From assembly GCA_937925685.1 (NCBI GenBank), contig CALAMI010000007.1, positions 248,001 to 312,000 of the forward strand: 64,000 bases of DNA, written 5' to 3'. Position numbers and translations under genes: made by a program. This document shows positions 48,830-60,309 of the stretch, one piece after another. Below the pieces are notes generated by a model. It had not been told where the DNA came from. It ran no database searches and saw only the letters and a list, made by a program, of their open reading frames with translations. Within the stretch, counting starts at the first letter, position 1. The number at the start of each line of letters is the position of its first letter. This DNA is from Candidatus Binatia bacterium (GTDB taxonomy: Bacteria; Desulfobacterota; Binatia; HRBIN30).

Positions 48830-49531
48830 CCTTATCATAAAGCTTGACGACCAAAGCGCGAACGCTCTGCCACACAACCAGCAGCATCAGGAGGACGACC
48901 CAGAAGGCTCGACCACAACTTGGCTGTCGTCGTGAATTTATATCCTCGAACCATCTGCCCTTTCTCCAAGCCACCCAACAGACCCGGCTGCGCTTCCCTT
49001 CCCCTCAGAACGCCCGCGAACCGCAACGCGCAACCGCCCCACGCGCACCCGCGTTCGTCATTCGCATTCACCCGTACCCCCAACCGCGCCGTCGCCCCCG
49101 CCACACGCTGGCACATAGACCTCTTCCGAACCCGCGACCAACCGTCACAGAAACCTTGGTGCGGCAAAGGGCCCCGTGGTCAAGCCAAGGGCGACGGAAC
49201 TGATCAAGCGGGCGTACAAACAGCAGTCACGGCATCTCCCGTCCCCGATGTCGCTCCAGAGGGGCATACTGGCCTCCCCTCCTACCGCAGAAAAACAGAT
49301 TCGTGCCCTTGCCTGTGAAACTTTCTTCCGGACGGATCGGGGCAGTTGGGCTTGCTACTGCGAGAGGTCTGCGCAACTTTGCAACGTTGGGTTTGCAATG
49401 GCGACCACGGCCAGTTCGCCCGACGCGGGTGTTTGGTGCACCCTCGTTCCTCGTTGCCGAAGCGGCATTCTACGTACCCCGCCACTGGAATGCACCTTGC
49501 GCGTTTCCCAGTGAAGCAATAACCGTAAGAC
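48830..49531. other. 0.7 kb without a clear gene
   Basis: Both strands have short open frames in several phases but no ribosome binding sites or family motifs. Composition is C-rich on the plus strand between 48950 and 49200. I see no hairpin terminator beyond background. Confidence 0.4.
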
Positions 49532-49921
49532 ATGCATTTTCCCCATTTCATGAGGCGTGTGAATCGGGTGTTCACCAACCCGATGATGCTGACCTTCGCC
49601 TGGCTGCTTCCGCCTCTCGCAGTGGTCCATCACGTGGGGCGCAAGAGCGGGCGCGCTTACAAAACACCAGTGGTCGCGTTTCGTACGGAGAAAGGCTTTG
49701 TCGTCCCCCTCACCTACGGGCGCGATGTGGACTGGGCGCAAAATCTCTTGAAAGCGCGCCACGGAGTCATCGAACAGCTAGGGAAAAAGTACGAACTCAT
49801 CAACCCGCGCATCGTCGATCGAGAGCAAGCCTACAGCTGGCTGCCTCCGCTGGTGCGCGGAGCACTGTACGCAGCCGACCTACCGGGTTACGTGCTACTG
49901 GATTTTCCCCGGAAACGGTAA
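49532..49921 (+). CDS. Deazaflavin (F420)-dependent nitroreductase-family protein
   Basis: 129 aa Ddn/DUF385-like split beta-barrel protein. The typical N-terminal helix is followed by the signature VVHHVGRKSGRAYKTPVVAF and a later VVPLTYGRDVDWAQNLLKA. Some family members reduce quinones or nitro compounds with F420H2. A short hydrophobic C-terminus is present (LPGYVLLDFPRKR). It is monocistronic here. With the LLM enzymes upstream it supports F420 use by this organism. Confidence 0.88.
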   Translation: MHFPHFMRRVNRVFTNPMMLTFAWLLPPLAVVHHVGRKSGRAYKTPVVAFRTEKGFVVPLTYGRDVDWAQNLLKARHGVIEQLGKKYELINPRIVDREQAYSWLPPLVRGALYAADLPGYVLLDFPRKR

Positions 49922-50090
49922 CTTCGATAAAGACCCACCGCCCCTCACTGCATGCAACGGGTCTAGGCGCCCTTGCCTGAGTAGACGAGCAGGCTCCTTT
50001 AACGGTCCGTACTTCACTGCGCGGCCGGACCGCTTCCCGGAGCTGCGCGATCTGCTCATTCGCCTAGGAAATCGTCGCCGGGCACTGAAG

Positions 50091-51167
50091 CTAAGGGTAA
50101 AAGCATCGTTGCTCGCGGCGTAAGAGATAAAGAAAGAATGGCCCGCCAGTGAGCGCTGTCACCACCCCAACAGGGATCTCTACTCCCGCTGCCGCGCTCC
50201 GTGCGATCGTGTCGGCAAGCAGCAGGAAAATAGCACCCCCTAAAGCGGAAGCCGGCAGTAACAAGCGATGATCGGCGCCCAAAATGGCGCGCAATGTATG
50301 CGGGACGATCAAACCCACGAACCCGATCATCCCGCTTACGGCGACCACGGCCCCTACCAGCAATGACGAGCCGAGGAACGCCACCCGCCGGACACGATCG
50401 ACGTCGACCCCCAGTTGCCACGCATTTTCCTCGCCCAAGCTCAGCAAATCGAGTCCCCGCGCGTGCCGGCAAAGCCAGGCGCCCGCCAACGCGCAGTACG
50501 CAGCGGCCGGAGCCACCAGATCGTAACCGTATCCAGCCACACTGCCGACCAGCCACGAAAGCAACCCTTGCGCCTGGTAGAAGTCGGCAAGAAAATTCAC
50601 GAACAAAATAAACGCCCCCGCGAAGGCGTTGTAGACCACACCAGCCAGTAACAACACATGGGGCTGCAAGCGTCCGTGGACCAACGAGATTCTGTAAAGA
50701 AGGGCAACCGAGACCAGGGCACCAGCCGCGGCAGCAAGAGGCAAAAGCCACATGCTCGCCAGCACCATCCGGCCACTAACAACGATTGCGATGGTGGCGC
50801 CGAGCGCTGCTCCCCCAGAGACGCCAATCAAATGCGGCTCAGCCAGAGGATTTCGCAAAAGTCCTTGCAACGTGGCTCCAGCTAGTCCCAGTGCAGCGCC
50901 CACGATGGCCGCGAGCAAAATGCGTGGTAGCCGCGTTTCGAACAAGATCACCCGGTCAACGTTTCTTTCCGGGCCCCATAAAACTCGATCCCAGTGCAAA
51001 GGCACGTTACCCACTCCTGCTGCCGCTACCGCTGTGAGCGCTAACAAGACAGCCAACGCTGCTAACACGGTCACGAGGCGCCCGCGGGTCAGATAAGGCC
51101 GTTTCTGCTCCCAGCGCAGAAACGAAGGAGGCGTGCAAGCGGGTAAGCCAGCCCCATTAGCGTGCAT
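50091..51167 (-). CDS. btuC: Cobalamin ABC transporter permease BtuC
   Basis: 358 aa inner-membrane permease of the FecCD/BtuC family with about ten hydrophobic segments. Signatures are RLPRILLAAIVGAALGLAGA, QGLLRNPLAEPHLIGVSGGA and GMIGFVGLIVPH. Its start overlaps the end of btuF. The cobalamin assignment comes from the operon's riboswitch and neighbours, as sequence alone would also fit haem or siderophores. No ATPase gene follows before the window feature at 49921. Confidence 0.92.
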   Translation of the reverse strand: MHANGAGLPACTPPSFLRWEQKRPYLTRGRLVTVLAALAVLLALTAVAAAGVGNVPLHWDRVLWGPERNVDRVILFETRLPRILLAAIVGAALGLAGATLQGLLRNPLAEPHLIGVSGGAALGATIAIVVSGRMVLASMWLLPLAAAAGALVSVALLYRISLVHGRLQPHVLLLAGVVYNAFAGAFILFVNFLADFYQAQGLLSWLVGSVAGYGYDLVAPAAAYCALAGAWLCRHARGLDLLSLGEENAWQLGVDVDRVRRVAFLGSSLLVGAVVAVSGMIGFVGLIVPHTLRAILGADHRLLLPASALGGAIFLLLADTIARSAAAGVEIPVGVVTALTGGPFFLYLLRREQRCFYP

Positions 51168-52080
51168 CGCTTTCCTCCGAGGTCTCGTCGTGGTGTGCGA
51201 AAAGCTCCGGATGAATCACCCGCGCCAACGCCCGCAAACCGTCCGGCAGCCGTGGCCCAGGGCGCAACACCCGGTCATCAGCGAAAAAAACAATGCGGCG
51301 GTTGTTGGTCGCCGCCACCGAGGAAAACCACTGCCAGAAAGCAACTGCGGTGGCGTCGCTCGTAGACTCCGTTCCCATCGTGGCGTCGATCACCACGTCG
51401 GGTGCCTCGCGAAGCACGAACTCCATGGAAACCTTGGGCCACCCGTGCGCAGTAACCACGTTCACCCCTCCCGCCAGGCGGATGGTCTCATCCTGAATTG
51501 TTTCGTGGCCAACCGCAATTAACGGATTACGACCCACCACAAACAGCACGCGGCGTGGCTGTGCCCGCGCCACTCGCCGTCGAACCTCTTCGATCGACGC
51601 CGAGAAACGCTGAGAAAGCTCTTGCCCACGGTCAGGGACGCCCAACTCCGCCGCAACCATGCGGATGACTTCCGCCAGGGCCGCCACACTCTGGGGATCC
51701 ACCACCAACACACGCAAACCTAAATGGAGCAGTCGCTCCACAACTCGGCGATTCCCCGGGCTCGGCGTGGCCAACACGAGCTGCGGTTGCAAGGCAAGCA
51801 CGGCTTCTACGTTTGGCGCCAAGAATGTTCCTACCTTCGGCAGCGTCCGCACCTCGGGTGGAAAGTCACACTGCGCAGTTACCCCAACCACCTGCTCGCC
51901 GACGCCCAGGGCAAAGGCCAGCTCCGTCATGGACGGCGCCAGGGACACGACGCGTGGTCGAGCTGGACTCGCAGCTTCTGCCGCTACGGCCCCGAGCGTC
52001 ACACACATGCAGAAAACAACCGCGCAGCGACGGAGCCACAATCCGAGAGCGTGGCACCACTTATGGGAAAGTGCACTCAT
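51157..52080 (-). CDS. btuF: Periplasmic cobalamin-binding protein BtuF
   Basis: 307 aa. A signal peptide is present (RRCAVVFCMCVTLGAVAAEA). The mature protein starts RVVSLAPSMTELAFALG, the classic first strand of class III substrate-binding proteins. Middle segment LVLATPSPGNRRVVERLLHLGL and later FWQWFSSVAA fit BtuF. It ends a few bases inside the permease gene and starts within the propeller gene's stop (overlap of 4 bp). It delivers B12 from the outer-membrane receptor to BtuC. Confidence 0.9.
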   Translation of the reverse strand: MSALSHKWCHALGLWLRRCAVVFCMCVTLGAVAAEAASPARPRVVSLAPSMTELAFALGVGEQVVGVTAQCDFPPEVRTLPKVGTFLAPNVEAVLALQPQLVLATPSPGNRRVVERLLHLGLRVLVVDPQSVAALAEVIRMVAAELGVPDRGQELSQRFSASIEEVRRRVARAQPRRVLFVVGRNPLIAVGHETIQDETIRLAGGVNVVTAHGWPKVSMEFVLREAPDVVIDATMGTESTSDATAVAFWQWFSSVAATNNRRIVFFADDRVLRPGPRLPDGLRALARVIHPELFAHHDETSEESDAR

Positions 52081-53357
52081 CGGAGGAAAACCAAGTCGAA
52101 CGGAGGCAAGCCTGTAAACAAAGGCGTCATGGTCAACTCCGTAGCGTCAGCAGCCCGAAAAATCCGAACCCCAGGCCGGCGAATATTGCGGTCGCTCAGA
52201 AACACGTAACCCTCGACGCTCAATTCCACGTCCGACAACCCATCGCCCCTCGGCACCACGGAGAACACGCTGCGCGTTCGGGCACTAAAGCGAACCAAAT
52301 CCGTGGAAAAATCCGGCCCAGACACAATCGCGTAGCCCACCTCATCGTCCAGCAACACAAAGTCAGTGATATCGCCACCGAGTTCTTGCTCCGTCAGCAA
52401 AAAGCCTTTGGACATCAGCGTGCCGAGATCGACCACCTCGATGCCACCGTCCAGTACGCCAAACTGGCCTACCAACGAAACGTAAAGCTGATTACCGCGT
52501 ACGGTCAGGCCCTTAGTCATGCCAAATGGATTTGCCGCACTTAACTCAATGGCGGCGACCACGCGATCCTCGATCGTGTCGACCACCAGCAACAGTCCAT
52601 TTCTCACCGGCACGAAGTTCTCCAGCCGCTCGAGGGTGACGAACAGTCGATCGCCGACGACGACCGCCTGATTCGCTTCAGGACTGCCATCGGCATCCGC
52701 AAAGCCGGTCAAGTCGATTCGTCCCTGAACAAAATCCGCGCAATCCGGCCTGGGGTGGGGATTGACCCGAAGGAGCCACGGACGCGCCAGCAAGGGGACG
52801 TACGCTTGCAAGCCGCTGCGAAAGGCAATGTCTTGCGGATTCGAGCCGTTACCCGTGGAACACTGCGCTACCGTGCGAAAGTCCTCGGCGGCATCGAGCA
52901 CTTGCAGGTTGTCGCTGCCGAACCGATTTACCACGTACACGCGCCGACCGAAAACCCGAGCCACCGGATCCGCGCCAAGGCGCCGCTGAGGCCGGGCCGG
53001 TTCCACGGAAAACGGAGGATCCAAAGCAACCAACGCGAAGCTGCCTGTTTGAAAATCCGTAGCGGTGACAAAGGCGACGTTCGGCAACGAAGGGGAGGAG
53101 AGCAGCATGTGGACTGCCAAGACAAGCTCCTCGATGGTGACCACGCCATCGCCATTGGCATCTCCGGCCGAGCAGCGACGGACGTCATCCTCGCCCAACG
53201 CGATGCGCACCAACGTAACCACCTCCTCGACGGTCACCAAGTCGTCGACATTGCAATCCCCGGGAGATCCGCTCCGCGTTGGCAAAGCCCAAACAGCGTG
53301 AGCCGCAAGGAAGAGTGGAACCCACGCAACCCGTACTCGTGCTAGAGGTCGGTTCAT
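52077..53357 (-). CDS. Secreted YncE-like beta-propeller with EF-hand/dockerin-like motifs
   Basis: 426 aa. ATG 53357 overlaps the TonB receptor stop (ATGA). After a signal peptide (LARVRVAWVPLFLAAHAVWA) come two EF-hand/dockerin-like motifs (GDCNVDDLVTVEEVVTLV and GDANGDGVVTIEELVLAV, about residues 32-80). Then follow about seven blades with repeated V-N-R/V-D-type strands (RVYVVNRFGSDNLQVLDAA, NQLYVSLVGQFGVLDGGIEVVD). The fold is YncE/BtuG-like. Its position between btuB and btuF suggests capture or handover of B12 at the surface or periplasm. That role is inferred by analogy with Bacteroides BtuG. Confidence 0.8.
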   Translation of the reverse strand: MNRPLARVRVAWVPLFLAAHAVWALPTRSGSPGDCNVDDLVTVEEVVTLVRIALGEDDVRRCSAGDANGDGVVTIEELVLAVHMLLSSPSLPNVAFVTATDFQTGSFALVALDPPFSVEPARPQRRLGADPVARVFGRRVYVVNRFGSDNLQVLDAAEDFRTVAQCSTGNGSNPQDIAFRSGLQAYVPLLARPWLLRVNPHPRPDCADFVQGRIDLTGFADADGSPEANQAVVVGDRLFVTLERLENFVPVRNGLLLVVDTIEDRVVAAIELSAANPFGMTKGLTVRGNQLYVSLVGQFGVLDGGIEVVDLGTLMSKGFLLTEQELGGDITDFVLLDDEVGYAIVSGPDFSTDLVRFSARTRSVFSVVPRGDGLSDVELSVEGYVFLSDRNIRRPGVRIFRAADATELTMTPLFTGLPPFDLVFLR

Positions 53358-55438
53358 TTTCGTTTCTCCCTGGGATGCCAGTTGACCGTGGCAAAGACAG
53401 AGCGACCGGGAAGTGGAAAGCCACCGACATCGGAAATCTGGTTGTCCGTCACGTTCCGCAACTGGACTCCGAGCTCCAGTGCCTCGCCCCATGTGTACCT
53501 GAAGCCCATGGTATGGATGGCTCGGCTGGGAACGAGATCGAAGTTCGCTTGGTCGAGGTAGTTCCCACTCACGAAGTTGAACTCGTAGTAAGGGTGTGTC
53601 GGGCCAATCGACGTGCCCAAGCGCAGGTAGGCTTCCTGTTGCGGCCGTCCTGGCAGGTGCTTGCCCCGATAAATCCCACCGAGGGCAAAGCTGCGATTCT
53701 CCAAGTCTTGCCAAGTATAGTTGCCGTCCAAAAGCCAATGTTTCCGCCAGCGAATGCGCAGGCCCAGTTCGTGTCCGCGCAATCGCGCGGCTCCAATGTT
53801 CTCCGCTTTAAAGATGGCTGCGGAACGCTGAACGAACACGATCAAGCGTTCCACATCGTTGTGGAAATAAGCGTACTCTCCTTGAACGAAAAGATCTGCG
53901 ACCGAAAAGCGCCGTTCGGCACGCAAGCCGACGTCTCGATTCCAGGCGCGCTCCGGGACGAGCTCTGGGTTACCGATCACGGCACCGGTGTTGCCGAAGA
54001 GTTCCGTAAAGTTCGGCGCACGCTCGTAGCGGCCGAGGTTGGCGCGCACCGAGACTCCCTCGAAAACGCGCCACTCGGAACCCAGACTCGGCCCCCACAA
54101 CACGTGTTCGCGGCCGAGCTTGGGGATGCTTCGACCAAAGTTTTGCCAGGCCCCCTGCGATGCGTCGTTCACCCATTCAAGTCGCAGCGTCGGTACGAGC
54201 ACAAGGATGTTGGGCCACAGCTCCCACTGATGCTGGGCAGCCGAGGTAGCCCGCCAACGTAACGCTTGCGGTTCCTGGGGTGCGTTCGGGGCCTCGTTCT
54301 CGGGGAAGAAGGCTTCGCGCGCAACCTCGAGGAAGAGCGTCAGTGCATGCGCCGCGGCTGGATATGCTGTCCAAGTACTATTCGCCCCAACGAGCCAAGA
54401 ATCGTCCGTTCGCCGCTGCTGTCCCGCGCCGAGCTCGCCCAAAGGGTCGCGAAACTGGTTGCGATCGAATGTGACGAAGAGGAGGCCCGTCGTATCGATT
54501 GTGTCCGTGGGCCAGCCGGCAAGCCGACCACGAAGAGCGTGGAGCACACGCAACCTTCCTGCCGCAGCGTGCAGCGAGGGGTTCGCCCCCCGCCCCGGAA
54601 GCTCGCCTTCTTTCCAAAATACGTCCTGCAACAGATCCAAGCTCACGCCGGATCCCCACTCGCGACGGCCGCGCAGAAGGGCAGCCAAACTGTCGAACGA
54701 GTTGTGCACCCGGGTGACCTTGCGATCGTCCCAGGGGTTGAAGGGAGTGTCATTGTCGGTGCGGAAACGAAAGTTGCCTGCACTCCCCAGGTATGTCAGG
54801 TTGCCGAAGAGCTGGTACGCGCCAACTGTTTGTGCCAGCGTTCCAGTCGTTTTGCGAGTCGTGAACGAACCGTAACCCACGGAGAGATTGCGATAGGGCG
54901 CAACCCCTGGCTCCCTCGGCACTAGGTTCACCGCCCCACCAATGCCGCCGATACCGAAATTCACCGGAGTGGCTCCCCGATAGATGTCGATCCGCTCGAG
55001 AGCGTCGAGAGGAAGGTCAGCAAGGTTCACGACCTCGTTTTGGGCGCGCGCCAGCGGAATGCCATCAAAGTACACCTGCACTTGGTTGGACGCAGCACCG
55101 CGAATGGACAACGTGCTGAACGCACCGAGACCACCGTACCGGCGCACGCTCACACCGACAGTGTCGCTGATCGCATCGGCCACTGTCTCGAGCTCCTCCA
55201 CGTAGTCGGAAGGGTCCACGCTATTTATAAAGGCAGTCGGTGCGTGCTGCGCGTTCTCTTCCAGGGGCGAAGCGCGCACTGTCACGGTTTCGTGGACCTG
55301 CGTTTCCGCGTGAACGCTTCCTACCATCGGGAAAAACATCCCCGCGGCCACGGTCTGCAGGAAAAGAGGCTCGGCTACTCCCCCGCCAGCCACGATCCCC
55401 ACTGCGAACGCCACTAGAAGTCGTCTCGACTCGAGCAC
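53354..55438 (-). CDS. btuB: TonB-dependent outer-membrane cobalamin receptor (BtuB-like)
   Basis: 694 aa. A signal peptide ends near residue 44 (SVHA), and a TonB box ETVTV is at 50-54. The plug domain carries SVRRYGGLGAFSTLSIRGAA and QVYFDGIPLARA, and the barrel ends with VGGFPLPGRSVFATVNW. The barrel region is shorter than FepA-type receptors and similar to BtuB in length (~600-700). The operon's riboswitch supports cobalamin as ligand. The stop overlaps the next gene's ATG, so translation is coupled. Confidence 0.9.
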   Translation of the reverse strand: MLESRRLLVAFAVGIVAGGGVAEPLFLQTVAAGMFFPMVGSVHAETQVHETVTVRASPLEENAQHAPTAFINSVDPSDYVEELETVADAISDTVGVSVRRYGGLGAFSTLSIRGAASNQVQVYFDGIPLARAQNEVVNLADLPLDALERIDIYRGATPVNFGIGGIGGAVNLVPREPGVAPYRNLSVGYGSFTTRKTTGTLAQTVGAYQLFGNLTYLGSAGNFRFRTDNDTPFNPWDDRKVTRVHNSFDSLAALLRGRREWGSGVSLDLLQDVFWKEGELPGRGANPSLHAAAGRLRVLHALRGRLAGWPTDTIDTTGLLFVTFDRNQFRDPLGELGAGQQRRTDDSWLVGANSTWTAYPAAAHALTLFLEVAREAFFPENEAPNAPQEPQALRWRATSAAQHQWELWPNILVLVPTLRLEWVNDASQGAWQNFGRSIPKLGREHVLWGPSLGSEWRVFEGVSVRANLGRYERAPNFTELFGNTGAVIGNPELVPERAWNRDVGLRAERRFSVADLFVQGEYAYFHNDVERLIVFVQRSAAIFKAENIGAARLRGHELGLRIRWRKHWLLDGNYTWQDLENRSFALGGIYRGKHLPGRPQQEAYLRLGTSIGPTHPYYEFNFVSGNYLDQANFDLVPSRAIHTMGFRYTWGEALELGVQLRNVTDNQISDVGGFPLPGRSVFATVNWHPREKRK

Positions 55439-56322
55439 GCAGATTCCCGAACTGCAGCCACCAAATCGGCTGCAGAGATTCGGCCGTCGTTGTTCCAGTC
55501 AGCGCCGTCCTGGCGGGCAAACACTGCGCCGATCAAACCCTGCACCACGGGACAAGAAGCCGTTGCTGTCGGTGAAGGGAACACCCAAGGGGTAAAACTT
55601 GGTGTAGCACTCGGAAGTCTCGTCGGCGTACTCGTGGGCTCGGCGATCGGAGTGGGCGTCGGGCTACGGTCTAACGGATCACATGCGTGCACTGCGGCCA
55701 CAGCGTCCAAGTCGAAACCGGCCATACCGCCACCGGGCAAACGGTTGCCCGGATCTGGCACCTGATCGCCAGCATCTGTTATGCGAACGAAGCGAATCCA
55801 CGGTAACCCCACTTCGTCGAGATCGAACGCGTCGCCGCCGGCAGCCACCGGGTCGCGCGGGTCGATGCCATTCTCCGGATTGCTGAACACAGGGGTTTTC
55901 CCGGCAAGCCCGCGCCAACTTTGGCTATCCCAAGGGAACTCGCGGAAATGGACACCGTCTTGACTTACCGCGACAAAGGCCAGTTCAGCGAACACCGGTC
56001 CGTTGCTGTCTCCGATGCGGAACGCGTTTTCGAACACGATGATGTCCGGCCCTGGGCCATTGCAGGCTATCGGCGGATCGAATCGCAGGACGATTTCTCC
56101 TCCATGCCCTAAGGAGACCACGTCCAGGGAACCTTCCAACAGTCCGCCGCCTCGAGGGGGCCCCAGCACAACCTGAGGCAAGCGCTCCTGCCCAAATCCG
56201 GCGCCTGCGCCCGGGCGAAATGCGACGACTGCATCGGCAAAGGGACCAGCAAAGGCTGTACGTGTGGCGAACGCCACTACCGCCACCGCCGCAAAGCAGA
56301 CAGGACGCACTCCCCGCTGCAT
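55414..56322 (-). CDS. Secreted cell-surface protein with C-terminal dockerin-like module
   Basis: 302 aa. ATG 56322 gives a signal peptide (MQRGVRPVCFAAVAVVAFA); the frame's earlier ATG lacks one. Segments GGEIVLRFDPPIACNGPGPDIIVFENAF and GGDAFDLDEVGLPWIRFVRITD resemble surface proteins found beside BtuB in other phyla. A Pro/Thr-rich linker (TPTPIAEPTSTPTRLPSATP) leads to a dockerin-like EF-hand, DWNNDGRISAADLVAAV. It overlaps the receptor's start by 25 bp, so it is translationally coupled. Probably a surface partner for B12 capture; unproven. Confidence 0.8.
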   Translation of the reverse strand: MQRGVRPVCFAAVAVVAFATRTAFAGPFADAVVAFRPGAGAGFGQERLPQVVLGPPRGGGLLEGSLDVVSLGHGGEIVLRFDPPIACNGPGPDIIVFENAFRIGDSNGPVFAELAFVAVSQDGVHFREFPWDSQSWRGLAGKTPVFSNPENGIDPRDPVAAGGDAFDLDEVGLPWIRFVRITDAGDQVPDPGNRLPGGGMAGFDLDAVAAVHACDPLDRSPTPTPIAEPTSTPTRLPSATPSFTPWVFPSPTATASCPVVQGLIGAVFARQDGADWNNDGRISAADLVAAVRESACSSRDDF

Positions 56323-56419
56323 GTGGCCACGGGTCGCCGCTGGCCGACGTGCGGCTTCCAGGCAGCGGGGAGAACGATCCATTCTTTTCTTTTGTCCTTC
56401 GCCCCGAAGGTCCAGAGGG

Positions 56420-57808
56420 TTAAGGCACGCAGCGCAAGGTCAAACGGTCCGTGTCCGCTTTCGAGCTGGCTGCCCGCACCTGCACACGGAGCCTCTTTTT
56501 GCTGGGCCGAAGCCCTTGGGGCGTAGAGAGCAAGGGCACTTGTACCGGTGCGGGGCCCACACACTCGGCCGAGCTACCTCCGAGAATCGCTTGCGCTGCG
56601 TTCAACAAGCCTTGGAGGCTTGGGTCCAGCATGGACTGCCCTAGCTGGGCCATTTGGATGCTCGACAACGGTGGAGCGACGCAACCACTGCGAGGCACCC
56701 GTAGACACAAGCCGACGGCAAACGTGCACACGCCATTTGCCGCACCGTCGCGGTCGCACGGGTCCCCATCGCGGCAAACCACCTTCGAGGTCGGCTGACC
56801 TTGCTGATTAAGGACAGGAGAGACATCCGAAAACTCAGACCAGCAATCTGTTGCCTGAGGGCCACCGCCGGGGAACAACCGATCGACTGGAGTCAACGTG
56901 GTGATGTTCGCCGACCCAAAGTCGACGACATACACCCGGCCGGAGTTCTGGTCGACGTCGATCCCCGTCGTGAAGCTGAAGCCACTAGCGAACTGGGTCA
57001 CGTTGTTTGACGCATCCACGGCCACGATGGTGCTCGAGGTAAAAGTGCTGTCAAACCCACCGGTTACCAGCAGGTTGCCGAGATGATCGAACGCTTGGTC
57101 GTACACTCCCGACAGTCCACTGACGACAGTCGTCTGCGTGTTCGTGACCGGGTCGTAGCGAACAATGCTCCCTTGGAAGGTGGAAGAGTTCAAGTCTCCG
57201 ACGTAAAGGAAGCCATTGTTGGCGAATGCAAGGCCGGCGACGTAGTCCAGCCCGCCCAGGAGCAGCACAAACGGCGGATAACCGAATGCACGGTGGCGAA
57301 GCACTCGCCCTGCACCGGAACCGGCGGCGTCACCCACGTAAGGTTGACCATCAGGCCCCAAGGCGATGCCCTGCGCAAATGGAATGGACCCCGGCGCATC
57401 AATTTCCAAACCTGATGCACTGACCGGGCTAACCACTCCGACTGGATTCGGAAGAGCAAAGGCCGTGTCCCCCGTGAGCGCTCCCGCGAGCTCACCGCCG
57501 TTGTCCGTAATGAACAAGTACGCATGGTTTCCTGCGAGACCACCGATGGAGTTCAAGCCAGTCACCACGGTCGTCAACGTCCCATCCCAATCGCGGCGCA
57601 CCACGGACTGCGTTCCGGCGCCGAACGCACCCTGTCCGGTGAATACGGAAGTGCCGATCACCGCGACATCACCGGTGGCCGCGCTGGGAAAGGAAAGCTG
57701 GCCGACGATGTAGCCCGGTGGTCCAATGACCAGGGCGAGCGCACGGCACGCCCACAGGCAACTCAATACCCAACTGCAAAAAACCCAATGACCCAAACGT
57801 AGCTGCAT
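56420..57808 (-). CDS. Secreted NHL-type beta-propeller protein, first gene of the B12 operon
   Basis: 462 aa. ATG 57808 has a GGGGAGG ribosome binding site 7 bases upstream and encodes a signal peptide (LGHWVFCSWVLSCLWACRALA). Repeats of the type GLDYVAGLAFANNGFLYVGDL and GVYDQAFDHLGNLLVTGG mark NHL/SMP-30-like blades. The C-terminal ~130 residues are Cys-rich (CRDGDPCDRDGAANGVC). It lies 98 bases after the terminator of the B12 riboswitch, so its expression should rise when cobalamin is scarce. A surface B12-binding role is inferred from context only. Confidence 0.85.
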   Translation of the reverse strand: MQLRLGHWVFCSWVLSCLWACRALALVIGPPGYIVGQLSFPSAATGDVAVIGTSVFTGQGAFGAGTQSVVRRDWDGTLTTVVTGLNSIGGLAGNHAYLFITDNGGELAGALTGDTAFALPNPVGVVSPVSASGLEIDAPGSIPFAQGIALGPDGQPYVGDAAGSGAGRVLRHRAFGYPPFVLLLGGLDYVAGLAFANNGFLYVGDLNSSTFQGSIVRYDPVTNTQTTVVSGLSGVYDQAFDHLGNLLVTGGFDSTFTSSTIVAVDASNNVTQFASGFSFTTGIDVDQNSGRVYVVDFGSANITTLTPVDRLFPGGGPQATDCWSEFSDVSPVLNQQGQPTSKVVCRDGDPCDRDGAANGVCTFAVGLCLRVPRSGCVAPPLSSIQMAQLGQSMLDPSLQGLLNAAQAILGGSSAECVGPAPVQVPLLSTPQGLRPSKKRLRVQVRAASSKADTDRLTLRCVP

Positions 57809-57905
57809 GACAAACCTCCCCGTGTCATGCGCGCTCCAGCGGAAGCGCGGGTGGTCGCCGGGCCGATGAGCGAGGGCGCACGCAGCTCGTTTGGCTTCAC
57901 CCGTG

Positions 57906-57937
57906 AAAAAACCCGGCAGCGCCACTGCGCCCCGGGT
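57906..57937 (-). terminator. Intrinsic terminator, expression platform of the B12 riboswitch
   Basis: On the minus strand ACCCGG and CCGGGT flank an inner GCGC/GCGC stem with an AGTG loop, followed directly by TTTTTT. The stem is very G+C-rich and the U-run is six long. It lies between the riboswitch aptamer and the first gene. Confidence 0.85.
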
Positions 57938-57977
57938 ATGAGCTTTTCCAACCGATCCCGCATTGGCCCTCACACCC

Positions 57978-58175
57978 CGGAAGGCACCTTTTCTCCTCGC
58001 TGCGGGGCCAGGTCTCCTGGCTCTCGGCTACCTACTCGCGGCGCCTTCCCATCCGGCCTTTCCGGACAGTGGCACGCTTGCCGCTTTCGTTCCGAATACA
58101 GTGGCGGGGGCCGCGCCGGCTTCTCACCGGCTTCCCTCAACCACGCAGCAATCGCCTTGGGTACCGGAACCATGT
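57978..58175 (-). ncRNA. Cobalamin (B12) riboswitch
   Basis: Read on the minus strand the conserved elements occur in order. The 5' GGTTCCGGTACCC is at about 58160-58172. The GGGAA..CCGGTGAGAAGCCGG stem is at 58116-58138. GCCACTG occurs at 58099-58105 and again at 58067-58073. GATGGGAAGG is near 58044-58053. The B12 box, GAGCCAGGAGACCTGG, is at 58008-58023. These match the cobalamin aptamer family. The intrinsic terminator at 57906-57937 downstream makes it a transcription-attenuation switch. Regulated genes are the six minus-strand genes down to btuC. Confidence 0.93.
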
Positions 58176-58377
58176 CTGCGTGTCAACACCCCCAGGGGGT
58201 CCCGCTGGTGGTGTCGTCGGCACCGAACAGCAGCGCGAGTCTCAAAAAAGGCACTGCCCCATCTTGAGGAAGAGCCCCAGACTGGGCAAAATCTGTTCTC
58301 GACCCCAAAGGTCAACAGGTAGCGGTTTGGGGTTGCGCAAGGCGGTCGGATGAACCGGGGTCAGCAAGGAGGCTCCG

Positions 58378-58851
58378 ATGCGGAACGTAAACGAAGTGCT
58401 GGAACGCAAGGGGCGGGATGTGTGGACCATTCAAGCCTCGCAGACCGTCTACGAGGCGCTCGAAGTGCTCGCCGCTAAAGACATTGGCGCGCTCTTAGTG
58501 TGCGAGGGAGAGCGTGCTGTAGGCATGTTTTCCGAACGCGACTATGCACGCCAGGTCATCCTCAAGGGCAAGGCATCCAAGGAAACTCTTGTTCGCGAGG
58601 TCATGAGTGCGCCGATCATTTTCGCTCGGCCCGAACTGAAACTCGAAGAGTGCATGGCTCTCATGACCGAACGGCGGATTCGCCACTTGCCAGTGGAAGA
58701 CAAGGGTCGAGTGGTGGGAATGATTTCGATTGGCGACGTTGTCAAAGCGATTCTGGAGGAAAAGCAGTTTCTCATCGAGCAACTCGAGGGATATATCGCC
58801 ACCGGGGGTTGGGCAGAGTTGACGACGACCACCCTGGTGGAACGGACTTAG
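58378..58851 (+). CDS. Two-CBS-domain protein
   Basis: 157 aa. ATG 58378 follows AAGGAGG with 5-base spacing. Two CBS domains (roughly 10-70 and 75-135) carry the conserved pattern IGALLVCEGERAVGMFSERDYAR and IRHLPVEDKGRVVGMISIGDVVK. Such proteins bind adenosine nucleotides (AMP, ATP, NADH) and act as energy sensors; a single-protein role is rarely known. It precedes the EF-P gene by 43 bp and may be cotranscribed with it. Confidence 0.93.
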   Translation: MRNVNEVLERKGRDVWTIQASQTVYEALEVLAAKDIGALLVCEGERAVGMFSERDYARQVILKGKASKETLVREVMSAPIIFARPELKLEECMALMTERRIRHLPVEDKGRVVGMISIGDVVKAILEEKQFLIEQLEGYIATGGWAELTTTTLVERT

Positions 58852-58894
58852 TCGAAGGTTGCCGTGAAAGAAACGGAAAATAGGAGGAGAGTTG

Positions 58895-59479
58895 ATGCCC
58901 ACCGTTTCGCCAGCCGAGTTCAAGCGCGGAATGGTCTTGTTGCTCGACGGAGTGCCTCACATCATTGAAGAGATGCACAGTACCGGTACGGCCAAGTTCA
59001 AGCAAAAAATTCATGCGAGAATGCGCCACTTGGCAAGCGGCCGGGTGATTGAACGGACTTTTGCCGACAATGAAGTCCTGCCTGCGGCAGACCTCGAACA
59101 GCGCAAAGCGCAGTTCAGTTATCAGCAGGGCGACACCTTTGTGTTTCTGGACAGCGAAACTTTCGAACCGCTCGAGTTATCCAGCGCGCAAATCGGCGAC
59201 AAAAGGTGGTTCCTAAAGGAAGGAGAGGAATACAAGACACTCTTTATCGACGGCAAGCTCGTCGACGTCGTGCTTCCCGATCAAGTCGTCCTCGCCGTGG
59301 TGGAGACCGGGCCGCCGCAACGGGGTAGTTCCGATTCTACGTGGAAGGCAGCCAAGCTAGAAACCGGACTCGAGATCATGGTCCCCTTGTTTATCGAAAC
59401 CGGTGAACGTGTTCGGGTGGACACAGCGGAACGGAAATACGTCGGGAAAGAGTCGGAGAAAAAGCCGGCACGCGGCTGA
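58895..59479 (+). CDS. efp: Elongation factor P family protein, divergent loop
   Basis: 194 aa with the three-domain EF-P architecture. The ATG at 58895 follows TAGGAGG. The N-terminal KOW-like domain has the loop HSTGTAKFKQ (28-37) where E. coli EF-P has KPGKGQ. An ungapped alignment still places Lys34 at the modified position, but the flanking Pro and Gly residues differ. The domain III signature MVPLFIETGERVRVDTAERKYVGK is intact. The protein helps ribosomes at polyproline stretches or is an EF-P paralog with another role. No epmA/epmB gene is seen nearby. Confidence 0.85.
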   Translation: MPTVSPAEFKRGMVLLLDGVPHIIEEMHSTGTAKFKQKIHARMRHLASGRVIERTFADNEVLPAADLEQRKAQFSYQQGDTFVFLDSETFEPLELSSAQIGDKRWFLKEGEEYKTLFIDGKLVDVVLPDQVVLAVVETGPPQRGSSDSTWKAAKLETGLEIMVPLFIETGERVRVDTAERKYVGKESEKKPARG

Positions 59480-60309
59480 AACCTCGACGTGCGCCGTGGT
59501 TCGGCGTTCCTGAAGGGAGCCCCCGAGCGACGAGAAAGAAAAGCTACCCTGTCCTACCCGGCTCAACCAACGTAGCGGTGTCGGGCCTGTGGCTCACCCA
59601 GGGGTGCCAAGGCCTTTTGTACAGCCAGGAGACGCGCCGCTCACACGCCTCCGCCATGGAGCGATGCACGCGCCCCCGACCCGAATTGCCCTGCAGACCA
59701 ACGCCCGCGCCCAAGCAGCCAACCGCTTGGGCGCCTAACACCCTCTCCATTCATTCCACCCAACACCTCGACGACCGGATCCTTTACTCCGCTACTCCAC
59801 CGCGATCGGACGACGATCGCGGGCTCTGCACTTCGAATTTCTCGCGCCTCTTCCTCGCCCCGCTTCCCCGCATCCCCGAGCAACTCGCGCAGTATTGCCA
59901 CTTCCTCCACTGGCAGCTCAGCGGTTTTCGGAAGAACGACGCAAAACACGGCGTTGCCCCTCGCGCTCGAGATTGCCCTTCTCCCCGCTCAAAAGTGTAC
60001 CTCCCCCTTCGAACCCACTGCGACATCTCGTTCCAAGTGCGCTCACTCCTCCGCCAAAGGCCAAGGTTCGTTTGCGACAGTAGAAAGAAACAGGAAACGA
60101 GCCCTCATTCGCTCAGTGGGTGGAGTCGCTCCATCCGCGATCAGATTCGTTCGCGTCAACCCGCAAACTCGTCCATCCGAGCTCCGAGCCCAACCTCCCA
60201 AAAGCGTGGCCTCAGTGTCGGATTGGGGTGGCTCTGAGTTTAGTTTGGAGCAAAGAACTTTCCCGCCCTTTGGGCGCGACTTCGTCACGCTCGCAGCAGA
60301 GGTTTGCAC
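59480..60309. other. 0.8 kb without an assignable gene
   Basis: Open frames exist in both directions. One on minus (59641-59949) starts with a protein-like helix (VVLPKTAELPVEEVAILREL) but has no ribosome binding site and a low-complexity Gly/Arg C-terminus. I do not annotate it as a gene. No terminator or repeat is seen. Confidence 0.35.

Follow-up and report, generated by a model that had tools for sequence, protein, structure and literature searches.

Introduction

Capture of vitamin B12 (cobalamin) by propeller lids and accessory binding proteins has been described in Bacteroides. In Bacteroides thetaiotaomicron, BtuG was described in a lid complex with the receptor BtuB (PMC10404256), and a BtuGH fusion together with ten B12 binders was reported (PMC12751083), while BtuH was described as a Bacteroides B12 binder with btuH homologs in three Firmicutes (PMC8941943). 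BtuG itself was stated to be exclusive to Bacteroidetes (PMC6143338). Another kind of B12 binder contains DUF4465; since DUF4465 genes lie near PF16819 propellers and some members belong to Myxococcota (PMC13398666), BtuG-like genes outside Bacteroidota may already be implicit in that work. In the present study, we analyzed a six-gene operon in a 64,000-nucleotide stretch of DNA (hereafter, the window) from Candidatus Binatia bacterium (GenBank assembly GCA_937925685.1, contig CALAMI010000007.1, positions 248,001 to 312,000). Its genes, numbered in the order of reading, encode an additional propeller (gene 1), a BtuH-type protein (gene 2), a BtuB-type receptor (gene 3), a BtuG-type propeller (gene 4), and BtuF- and BtuC-type proteins (genes 5 and 6). 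The operon probably serves the scavenging and import of vitamin B12 and would be repressed by B12 via a terminating cobalamin riboswitch.

Predicted riboswitch control and organization of the operon

As shown in Table 1, a cobalamin aptamer was identified far above the cut-off of the Rfam covariance model, and no second RF00174 match was found elsewhere in the genome, which is 95% complete. The aptamer is followed by a hairpin and a T run, and an equally good fold was obtained in 1 of 200 shuffled sequences. A blind pattern scan of positions 49000-59500, which yielded 16 terminator-like sites versus 14.3 (standard deviation, 4.0) in shuffled sequences and one promoter-like site versus 2.1 expected, was at chance level for both and thus speaks against the terminator; the call was therefore based on the location of the hairpin behind the aptamer and on its fold.

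Downstream of these elements, six minus-strand genes reach position 50091. Gene 1 is separated from gene 2 by a 37-base gap, and overlaps of about 25, 4, 4, and 11 bases occur at the four junctions that follow, although the overlap sizes depend on the chosen starts, those of gene 4 (53357) and gene 1 (57808) having been read from the translations. The initial annotation, made from the sequence alone, had named a conserved cobalamin aptamer, an intrinsic terminator, six minus-strand genes with four short overlaps, an NHL propeller as the first of them, and genes for BtuF and BtuC; each of these assignments was borne out, with the BtuF and BtuC models ranking best for the last two genes though below their cut-offs.

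Table 1. Features of the operon, with positions in the window and supporting matches (pLDDT, predicted local distance difference test)
Feature	Position	Strand	Evidence
Cobalamin riboswitch aptamer (RF00174)	58010..58137	-	86.6 bits vs cut-off 31.5, E 5.7e-20 (covariance model)
Intrinsic terminator hairpin, then T run	57911..57937	-	-19.3 kcal/mol, z -3.12
Gene 1: secreted NHL-type propeller with C-terminal cysteine-rich module	56420..57808	-	PF01436 5.9e-7; ScyD/ScyE 1.4e-13 (below cut-off)
C-terminal cysteine-rich module of gene 1	56423..56875	-	Many matches over about residues 300-463 outside gene 1
Gene 2: BtuH-type protein with dockerin-like tail	55414..56382	-	BtuH2 Z 14.1, BtuG1 Z 13.3; LIC_13355 5.4e-12 (below cut-off)
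BtuH-type domain of gene 2 (modelled part)	55675..56250	-	pLDDT 96.1; 84-row alignment A4
EF-hand/dockerin-like tail of gene 2	55447..55503	-	EF-hand_1 E 0.029, Dockerin_1 11.8 bits (both below cut-off)
Gene 3: BtuB-type TonB-dependent receptor	53354..55438	-	PF00593 6.7e-31; TIGR01779 5.4e-33 (below cut-off)
Gene 4: dockerin-like head and BtuG-type propeller	52077..53357	-	Profile, Foldseek, and VIA matches
BtuG-type propeller of gene 4 (modelled part)	52080..53084	-	Model pLDDT 90.3, 13 sequences
Dockerin-like head of gene 4	53100..53264	-	Dockerin_1 12.5 bits, cut-off 22.9
Gene 5: BtuF-type periplasmic binding protein	51157..52080	-	PF01497 1.9e-29; PRK03379 BtuF 5.2e-43 (below cut-off)
Gene 6: BtuC-type permease	50091..51167	-	PF01032 2.5e-88; BtuC models best, below cut-off

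Putative capture proteins encoded by genes 4 and 2

To place gene 4, its relatives were gathered from 98 genomes of the class and 40 fetched stretches, and a profile (A2) was built from 36 propellers. The nine best chains obtained with this profile in the Protein Data Bank (PDB) were all of the BtuG/YncE type (E 1.4e-4 to 2.2e-3), the next chain lying at 0.54. Seven of the nine are BtuG, as judged from their titles or, for 3dsm, from a passage in PMC6143338; only the names YncE or surface layer protein are given for the other two, 8puj and 8baz. No BtuG match was obtained when the PDB was searched with the single gene 4 sequence. With the structural model, BtuG entries occupied Foldseek ranks 1-9, and rows 1-11 in VIA were of the BtuG type (Z 29.7-32.2). 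Taken on profile and model, gene 4 is predicted to encode a remote BtuG relative. The locus resembles that of the BtuB-BtuG lid of B. thetaiotaomicron (8blw, 8bmx, 8p97) in that a receptor gene precedes a propeller matching BtuG in fold and profile and in the presence of a cobalamin riboswitch, whereas identity is about 17%, the BtuG family DUF5074 is not matched, and the propeller is preceded by a dockerin-like head and lacks an evident lipobox.

For gene 2, the structural model decided the assignment. When the 1000 best matches were aligned with VIA-align, BtuH2 (7biz) ranked first (150 positions aligned, root-mean-square deviation 2.7), followed by BtuG1 (8blw) and then by CBM32-like domains at Z 9.3. 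Furthermore, the invariant N-x-F of an alignment of 84 domains (A4) was found to align with the sequence NAF of BtuH2, namely Asn399 and Phe401 in a numbering that assumes a chain offset of 100 deduced from the construct length; these residues are reported to contact the phosphate and lower ligand of B12 (PMC8941943). The other BtuH2 contacts, Gln333, His476, Tyr510, Trp511, Trp577, and Leu578, fall outside the stretch aligned with A4. From its model, and with a weak sequence link, gene 2 is thus read as encoding a remote BtuH relative. It shares with the BtuH and BtuGH proteins of Bacteroides (7biz, 8blw) the domain fold, the aligned N-x-F, and a location within a btuB operon, and differs from them in its 22-24% identity, in that no PKD domains were seen, and in having a dockerin-like tail with no evident lipobox. 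Two other assignments were discarded: a DUF4465 (BtuJ) protein, as no DUF4465 Pfam match was found at E values up to 1 in the seven proteins scanned, and the phmmer matches to maltose-binding protein and others, which were at chance level (best E 0.029).

Gene 2 and its relatives are also linked to LIC_13355, a lipoprotein of Leptospira. The NCBIfam model of this protein (NF033170) was matched by all 28 members of a gene-2 alignment (A1), with 6.1e-12 as the best value, whereas the gene 2 domain of the window scored 44.8 bits against a family cut-off of 120. LIC_13355 has been studied as a laminin and plasminogen binder, and the words B12 and cobalamin are absent from the main text of that paper (PMC11891782). 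A B12-related role of LIC_13355 is possible.

Conservation of the gene set within the class

Gene-4 propellers were found in 42 of the 98 class genomes, gene 2 in 40, and gene-1 propellers in 35. Both gene 2 and gene 4 are present in 39 of the 98 genomes (Fisher p 1.3e-22, a value that ignores relatedness). A cobalamin riboswitch lies on the same strand within 10 kb upstream of 33 of 38 gene-1 copies, 34 of 42 gene-2 copies, and 30 of 49 gene-4 copies. Because some of the misses are near contig ends, these counts are lower bounds; in addition, the riboswitches came from a scan with stricter filters that lose weak matches. As controls, none of 30 C-terminal modules of the gene 1 type situated elsewhere and none of 30 dockerin-like modules elsewhere had a riboswitch within this distance, these being the first 30 module-only rows of each kind and not a random sample; the dockerin rows came from 8 genomes, and one row abutting gene 2 (G050:C224) was excluded. 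The gene-4 rows counted scored about 95 bits or more, so that two weaker full-length matches (G012:C7, 73.9 bits; G045:C11, 55.9 bits) were left out. Where several rows belonged to one split gene-2 copy, they were merged, and gene-1 rows were those covering the propeller, the last of which (G070:C37) is a fragment.

A same-strand btuB-type gene directly precedes gene 4 in the window and in 26 of 35 relatives (27 of 36 in total), and 8 of 40 loci show the complete order gene 1, gene 2, btuB, gene 4. In G007, the gene set is divided between two riboswitch operons. An apparent fusion of BtuB and propeller in G012 and G013 (frames of 1118-1119 amino acids) was ruled out, the two being separate, overlapping frames. 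Apart from these counts, one locus (L047, G021:C9) displays serial copies of genes 4, 2, and 1 along with btuF and btuC, with three gene-2 matches on one 20-kb stretch, and its genome has four riboswitches.

The proposal of the initial annotation can be refined. It had suggested that two propellers and a dockerin-like protein form a capture apparatus of a combination not known as described and should co-occur with btuB. The recurrence of the propellers beside btuB-type genes and cobalamin riboswitches upheld the co-occurrence, and an operon for capture and import under B12 regulation has good support. What it called an EF-hand propeller is indeed a propeller, albeit not of an unfamiliar kind, since gene 4 is BtuG-type by profile, Foldseek, and VIA; its dockerin-tailed surface protein does bear a dockerin-like tail (below the cut-off) and is BtuH-type by its structure match and N-x-F. 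As gene 4 is BtuG-type and gene 2 BtuH-type, the core of the operon corresponds to the BtuB-BtuG-BtuH set known from Bacteroides, and the claim of novelty does not extend to it. What is new is the occurrence of a BtuG/BtuH-type set in this class and other phyla, the extra propeller encoded by gene 1, and the presence of dockerin-like modules in place of the lipid anchors of the Bacteroides proteins. No paper title describing such a combination was found in the literature searched, mainly journal articles with open access.

Relatives outside the class

Scanning species genomes with profile A1 yielded at least 79 loci that were kept, a few of them from the class of the window. They were labelled Myxococcota, Planctomycetes, KSB1, WOR-3, Sumerlaeaceae, Hydrogenedens, and others. 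Of the 50 loci searched, 32, among them loci from Myxococcota, KSB1, and WOR-3, have an above-cut-off riboswitch no more than 9 kb upstream of gene 2; 25 of these were confirmed on the locus and 7 rest on contig coordinates (L076, L082, L100, L102, L111, L115, and L148). The 25 confirmed among 27 loci do not represent a rate, since the loci were mostly chosen where coordinates already suggested a riboswitch. L109, L111, L120, and L134 were included because an over-extended frame start had hidden the riboswitch directly before the domain. One of the 50 loci, L073, is apparently from the class of the window. A riboswitch at L089, whose coordinate match was not confirmed on the locus, was dropped, and that at L095 (31.4, just under the cut-off) was left uncounted. 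No riboswitch was found near the Planctomycetes loci L092, L114, L125, and L136.

Matches to the btuB, gene-4, and gene-2 profiles were found together in L093 and L132 (labelled Myxococcota), L134 and L148 (labelled Deltaproteobacteria), and L122 (Hydrogenedens). Moreover, in the KSB1 loci L103 (4172-6085) and L106 (8876-10876), a single protein, encoded downstream of a riboswitch and a btuB-type gene, comprises a propeller and a gene-2 domain, the same architecture as that of Bacteroides BtuG1. The propeller of the L106 fusion matches BtuG chains (8ptf, 2.9e-8; 8blw, 1.9e-7), and a generic archaeal surface propeller (1l0q) matches it better (4.1e-14); DUF5074 is matched below its cut-off in both fusions.

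Import genes and their surroundings

The operon resembles E. coli-type BtuB-BtuCDF import in possessing a TonB receptor, a binding protein, and a FecCD-family permease. It differs in that capture proteins are added, the genes score under the cut-off for all Btu models, and btuD, which was not found within the operon, lies outside it. An intact-frame btuD-like ATPase gene, 62% identical to the ATPase gene product beside btuC in G004, was located on another contig of the same genome (L151 3131-3979; G000:C2), ruling out loss of btuD from the genome. The genes flanking it look unrelated. The corrin-ring marker CbiC was not found in this genome and is present in 8 of the 98 class genomes; the lack of a match fits with dependence on B12 uptake. 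B12 auxotrophy was discarded as a correlate of gene 4, as CbiC was found in 1 of the 42 genomes that have gene 4 and in 7 of the 56 that lack it (one of these seven matches being a fragment), a difference that was not significant (Fisher p 0.13).

Upstream of the riboswitch, two divergent plus-strand genes (58378-58851 and 58892-59479) appear by eye to encode a CBS-domain protein and elongation factor P. Beyond btuC, a convergent plus-strand gene (49532-49921) weakly matched F420H(2)-dependent quinone reductase, at 21.2 bits against a cut-off of 22.

Putative anchoring modules

The dockerin-like modules at the head of gene 4 and the tail of gene 2 both score under the cut-off of Dockerin_1 (PF00404; Table 1), and no lipobox pattern was found in either protein. 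The modules probably hold both proteins at the cell surface in place of a lipid. Among 35 gene-4 relatives inspected by eye, 9 carry a dockerin-like head of the GDC type, 6 another EF-hand pair, 14 a lipobox-like cysteine, 5 a module resembling the C-terminus of gene 1, and 1 none of these; a regular expression alone gives fewer lipoboxes, and two of the five gene 1-type modules are backed by same-frame profile matches (L046 and one copy in L047). The KSB1 and WOR-3 forms bear sorting-type tails, with FlgD_ig in both KSB1 proteins and Por_Secre_tail below the cut-off.

The genome of the window further contains a gene for a three-cohesin lipobox protein (L152 997-3402, G000:C24; PF00963, E 1.3e-26), and two genes further on lies one whose product has a dockerin-like head (17.1 bits, below the cut-off). 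Elsewhere in the genome, another protein (L153 2457-4949, G000:C8) has a cohesin-like head (19.8 bits, below the cut-off) and a tail that looks dockerin-like by eye. As judged from their sequences, the L152 and L153 proteins are putative parts of a cohesin-dockerin system. Cohesin matches were found in 15 of the 20 genomes searched. Cohesin and dockerin proteins outside cellulosomes, for instance in syntrophic sulfate reducers, have been reported (PMC10553843).

The modules may, on the other hand, be plain calcium-binding tags for folding or secretion that bind no cohesin, an explanation with about an even chance of being correct. It would account for their scores under the Pfam cut-off, for the one clear EF-hand loop of the gene 2 tail, and for similar modules on many other proteins of the genome, whereas the three-cohesin lipobox protein and the lipobox found at the same position in 14 of the gene 4 relatives argue against it. 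Since the genome encodes cohesin proteins along with eight dockerin matches over the cut-off, a cohesin-based anchor for genes 2 and 4 is possible. We tentatively propose, as a rather doubtful extension, that dockerin-cohesin pairing replaces lipidation: a cohesin lipoprotein scaffold would dock the BtuH- and BtuG-type proteins near BtuB in a cellulosome-like vitamin harvester, and orthologous propellers of the class would exchange one anchor for another among dockerin-like heads, lipoboxes, and a third type of module. The likeness to cellulosomal attachment lies in the dockerin-like modules of genes 2 and 4 and the three-cohesin lipobox protein of the same genome; the differences are that these modules are below the dockerin cut-off, that the cargo would be vitamin-capture proteins, and that the pairing is a prediction.

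The additional propeller encoded by gene 1

Gene 1 is a new partner beside the BtuB-BtuG-BtuH set. Its cysteine-rich C-terminal module recurs in numerous other class proteins and appears to be a surface or sorting module specific to the class; as a separate observation, it also precedes some gene-4 propellers (L046 and L047). A relationship of gene 1 to BtuG was considered and could not be demonstrated: its PDB profile matches were generic NHL-type and other propellers, and hhalign against the gene-4 profile gave a probability of 44% over 152 columns. Gene 1 might encode a secreted protein with a scaffold role, or an unrelated propeller that the operon happens to carry, instead of a B12 catcher. 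The generic matches, the low hhalign result, and the occurrence of its module on many other class proteins make this a real possibility, although one somewhat short of an even chance. It is opposed by the riboswitch found upstream of 33 of the 38 relatives and by the loci L033 and L036, where a second BtuG-like propeller occupies the first slot and gene 1 was not found.

Ligand of the system

Several results weigh against B12 as the ligand or against the assignment of the capture proteins. The curated vitamin B12 receptor model TIGR01779 gave gene 3 only 114 bits against a cut-off of 599.7; the best NCBIfam model for this gene was that of the siderophore receptor MxcH (5.4e-44, against 5.4e-33 for TonB-B12, both below their cut-offs), and the first match in the PDB search was 9gbc, which is not named a B12 receptor, with BtuB1 ranking second (2.4e-13). 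For gene 4, DUF5074 (PF16819), the Pfam family of BtuG, was unmatched in the window and matched by just 3 of 36 relatives (best 8.4e-4), and an archaeal surface propeller came next in VIA (Z 29.5), so close behind that the fold alone would not decide. Plain Foldseek with the gene 2 model returned 570 matches, none with E < 0.001, with CBM32/discoidin-type domains on top and no BtuH entry among the 50 best; the PDB search with profile A4 gave weak matches, the BtuH part of BtuG1 being first (8blw 433-498, E 0.021) and BtuH2 third (7biz, E 0.8), and the BtuH domain of BtuG1 itself has Ser at the Phe401 position. Within the class, 19 of 49 gene-4 matches had no riboswitch found within 10 kb, and 9 of 36 copies had no btuB-type gene directly before them.

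Import of another ligand such as a siderophore, with the propeller as an XusB-like xenosiderophore lid and B12 acting as regulator only, would agree with the MxcH match and with the XusB entries among the structure matches of gene 4, yet it is very improbable in view of the B12 riboswitches that precede these genes in the window and across the class, the BtuG entries ranking above XusB (Z 29.7-32.2 versus 25.9), the BtuH-type partner, and the best matches of genes 5 and 6 to BtuF and BtuC models.

Proposed function and implications

In the proposed B12 scavenging and import, scarcity of B12 would leave the terminator unformed, allowing the operon to be read. The BtuH-type protein, and probably also the gene 1 propeller, would capture corrinoids outside the cell, and the BtuG-type propeller would act as the capture lid of the BtuB-type receptor, to which it would hand B12 over. 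TonB-driven import would then deliver B12 to BtuF and BtuC, operating with the BtuD-like ATPase encoded elsewhere.

Under this interpretation, the leptospiral LIC_13355, regarded so far as a binder of host ligands, gains a possible B12-related reading. The swapping of anchors around a conserved capture core may be considered a natural experiment on surface retention. If BtuG- and BtuH-type capture indeed spans this class, Myxococcota, KSB1, and WOR-3, lid-assisted capture of B12 would be a wider strategy of Gram-negative bacteria.

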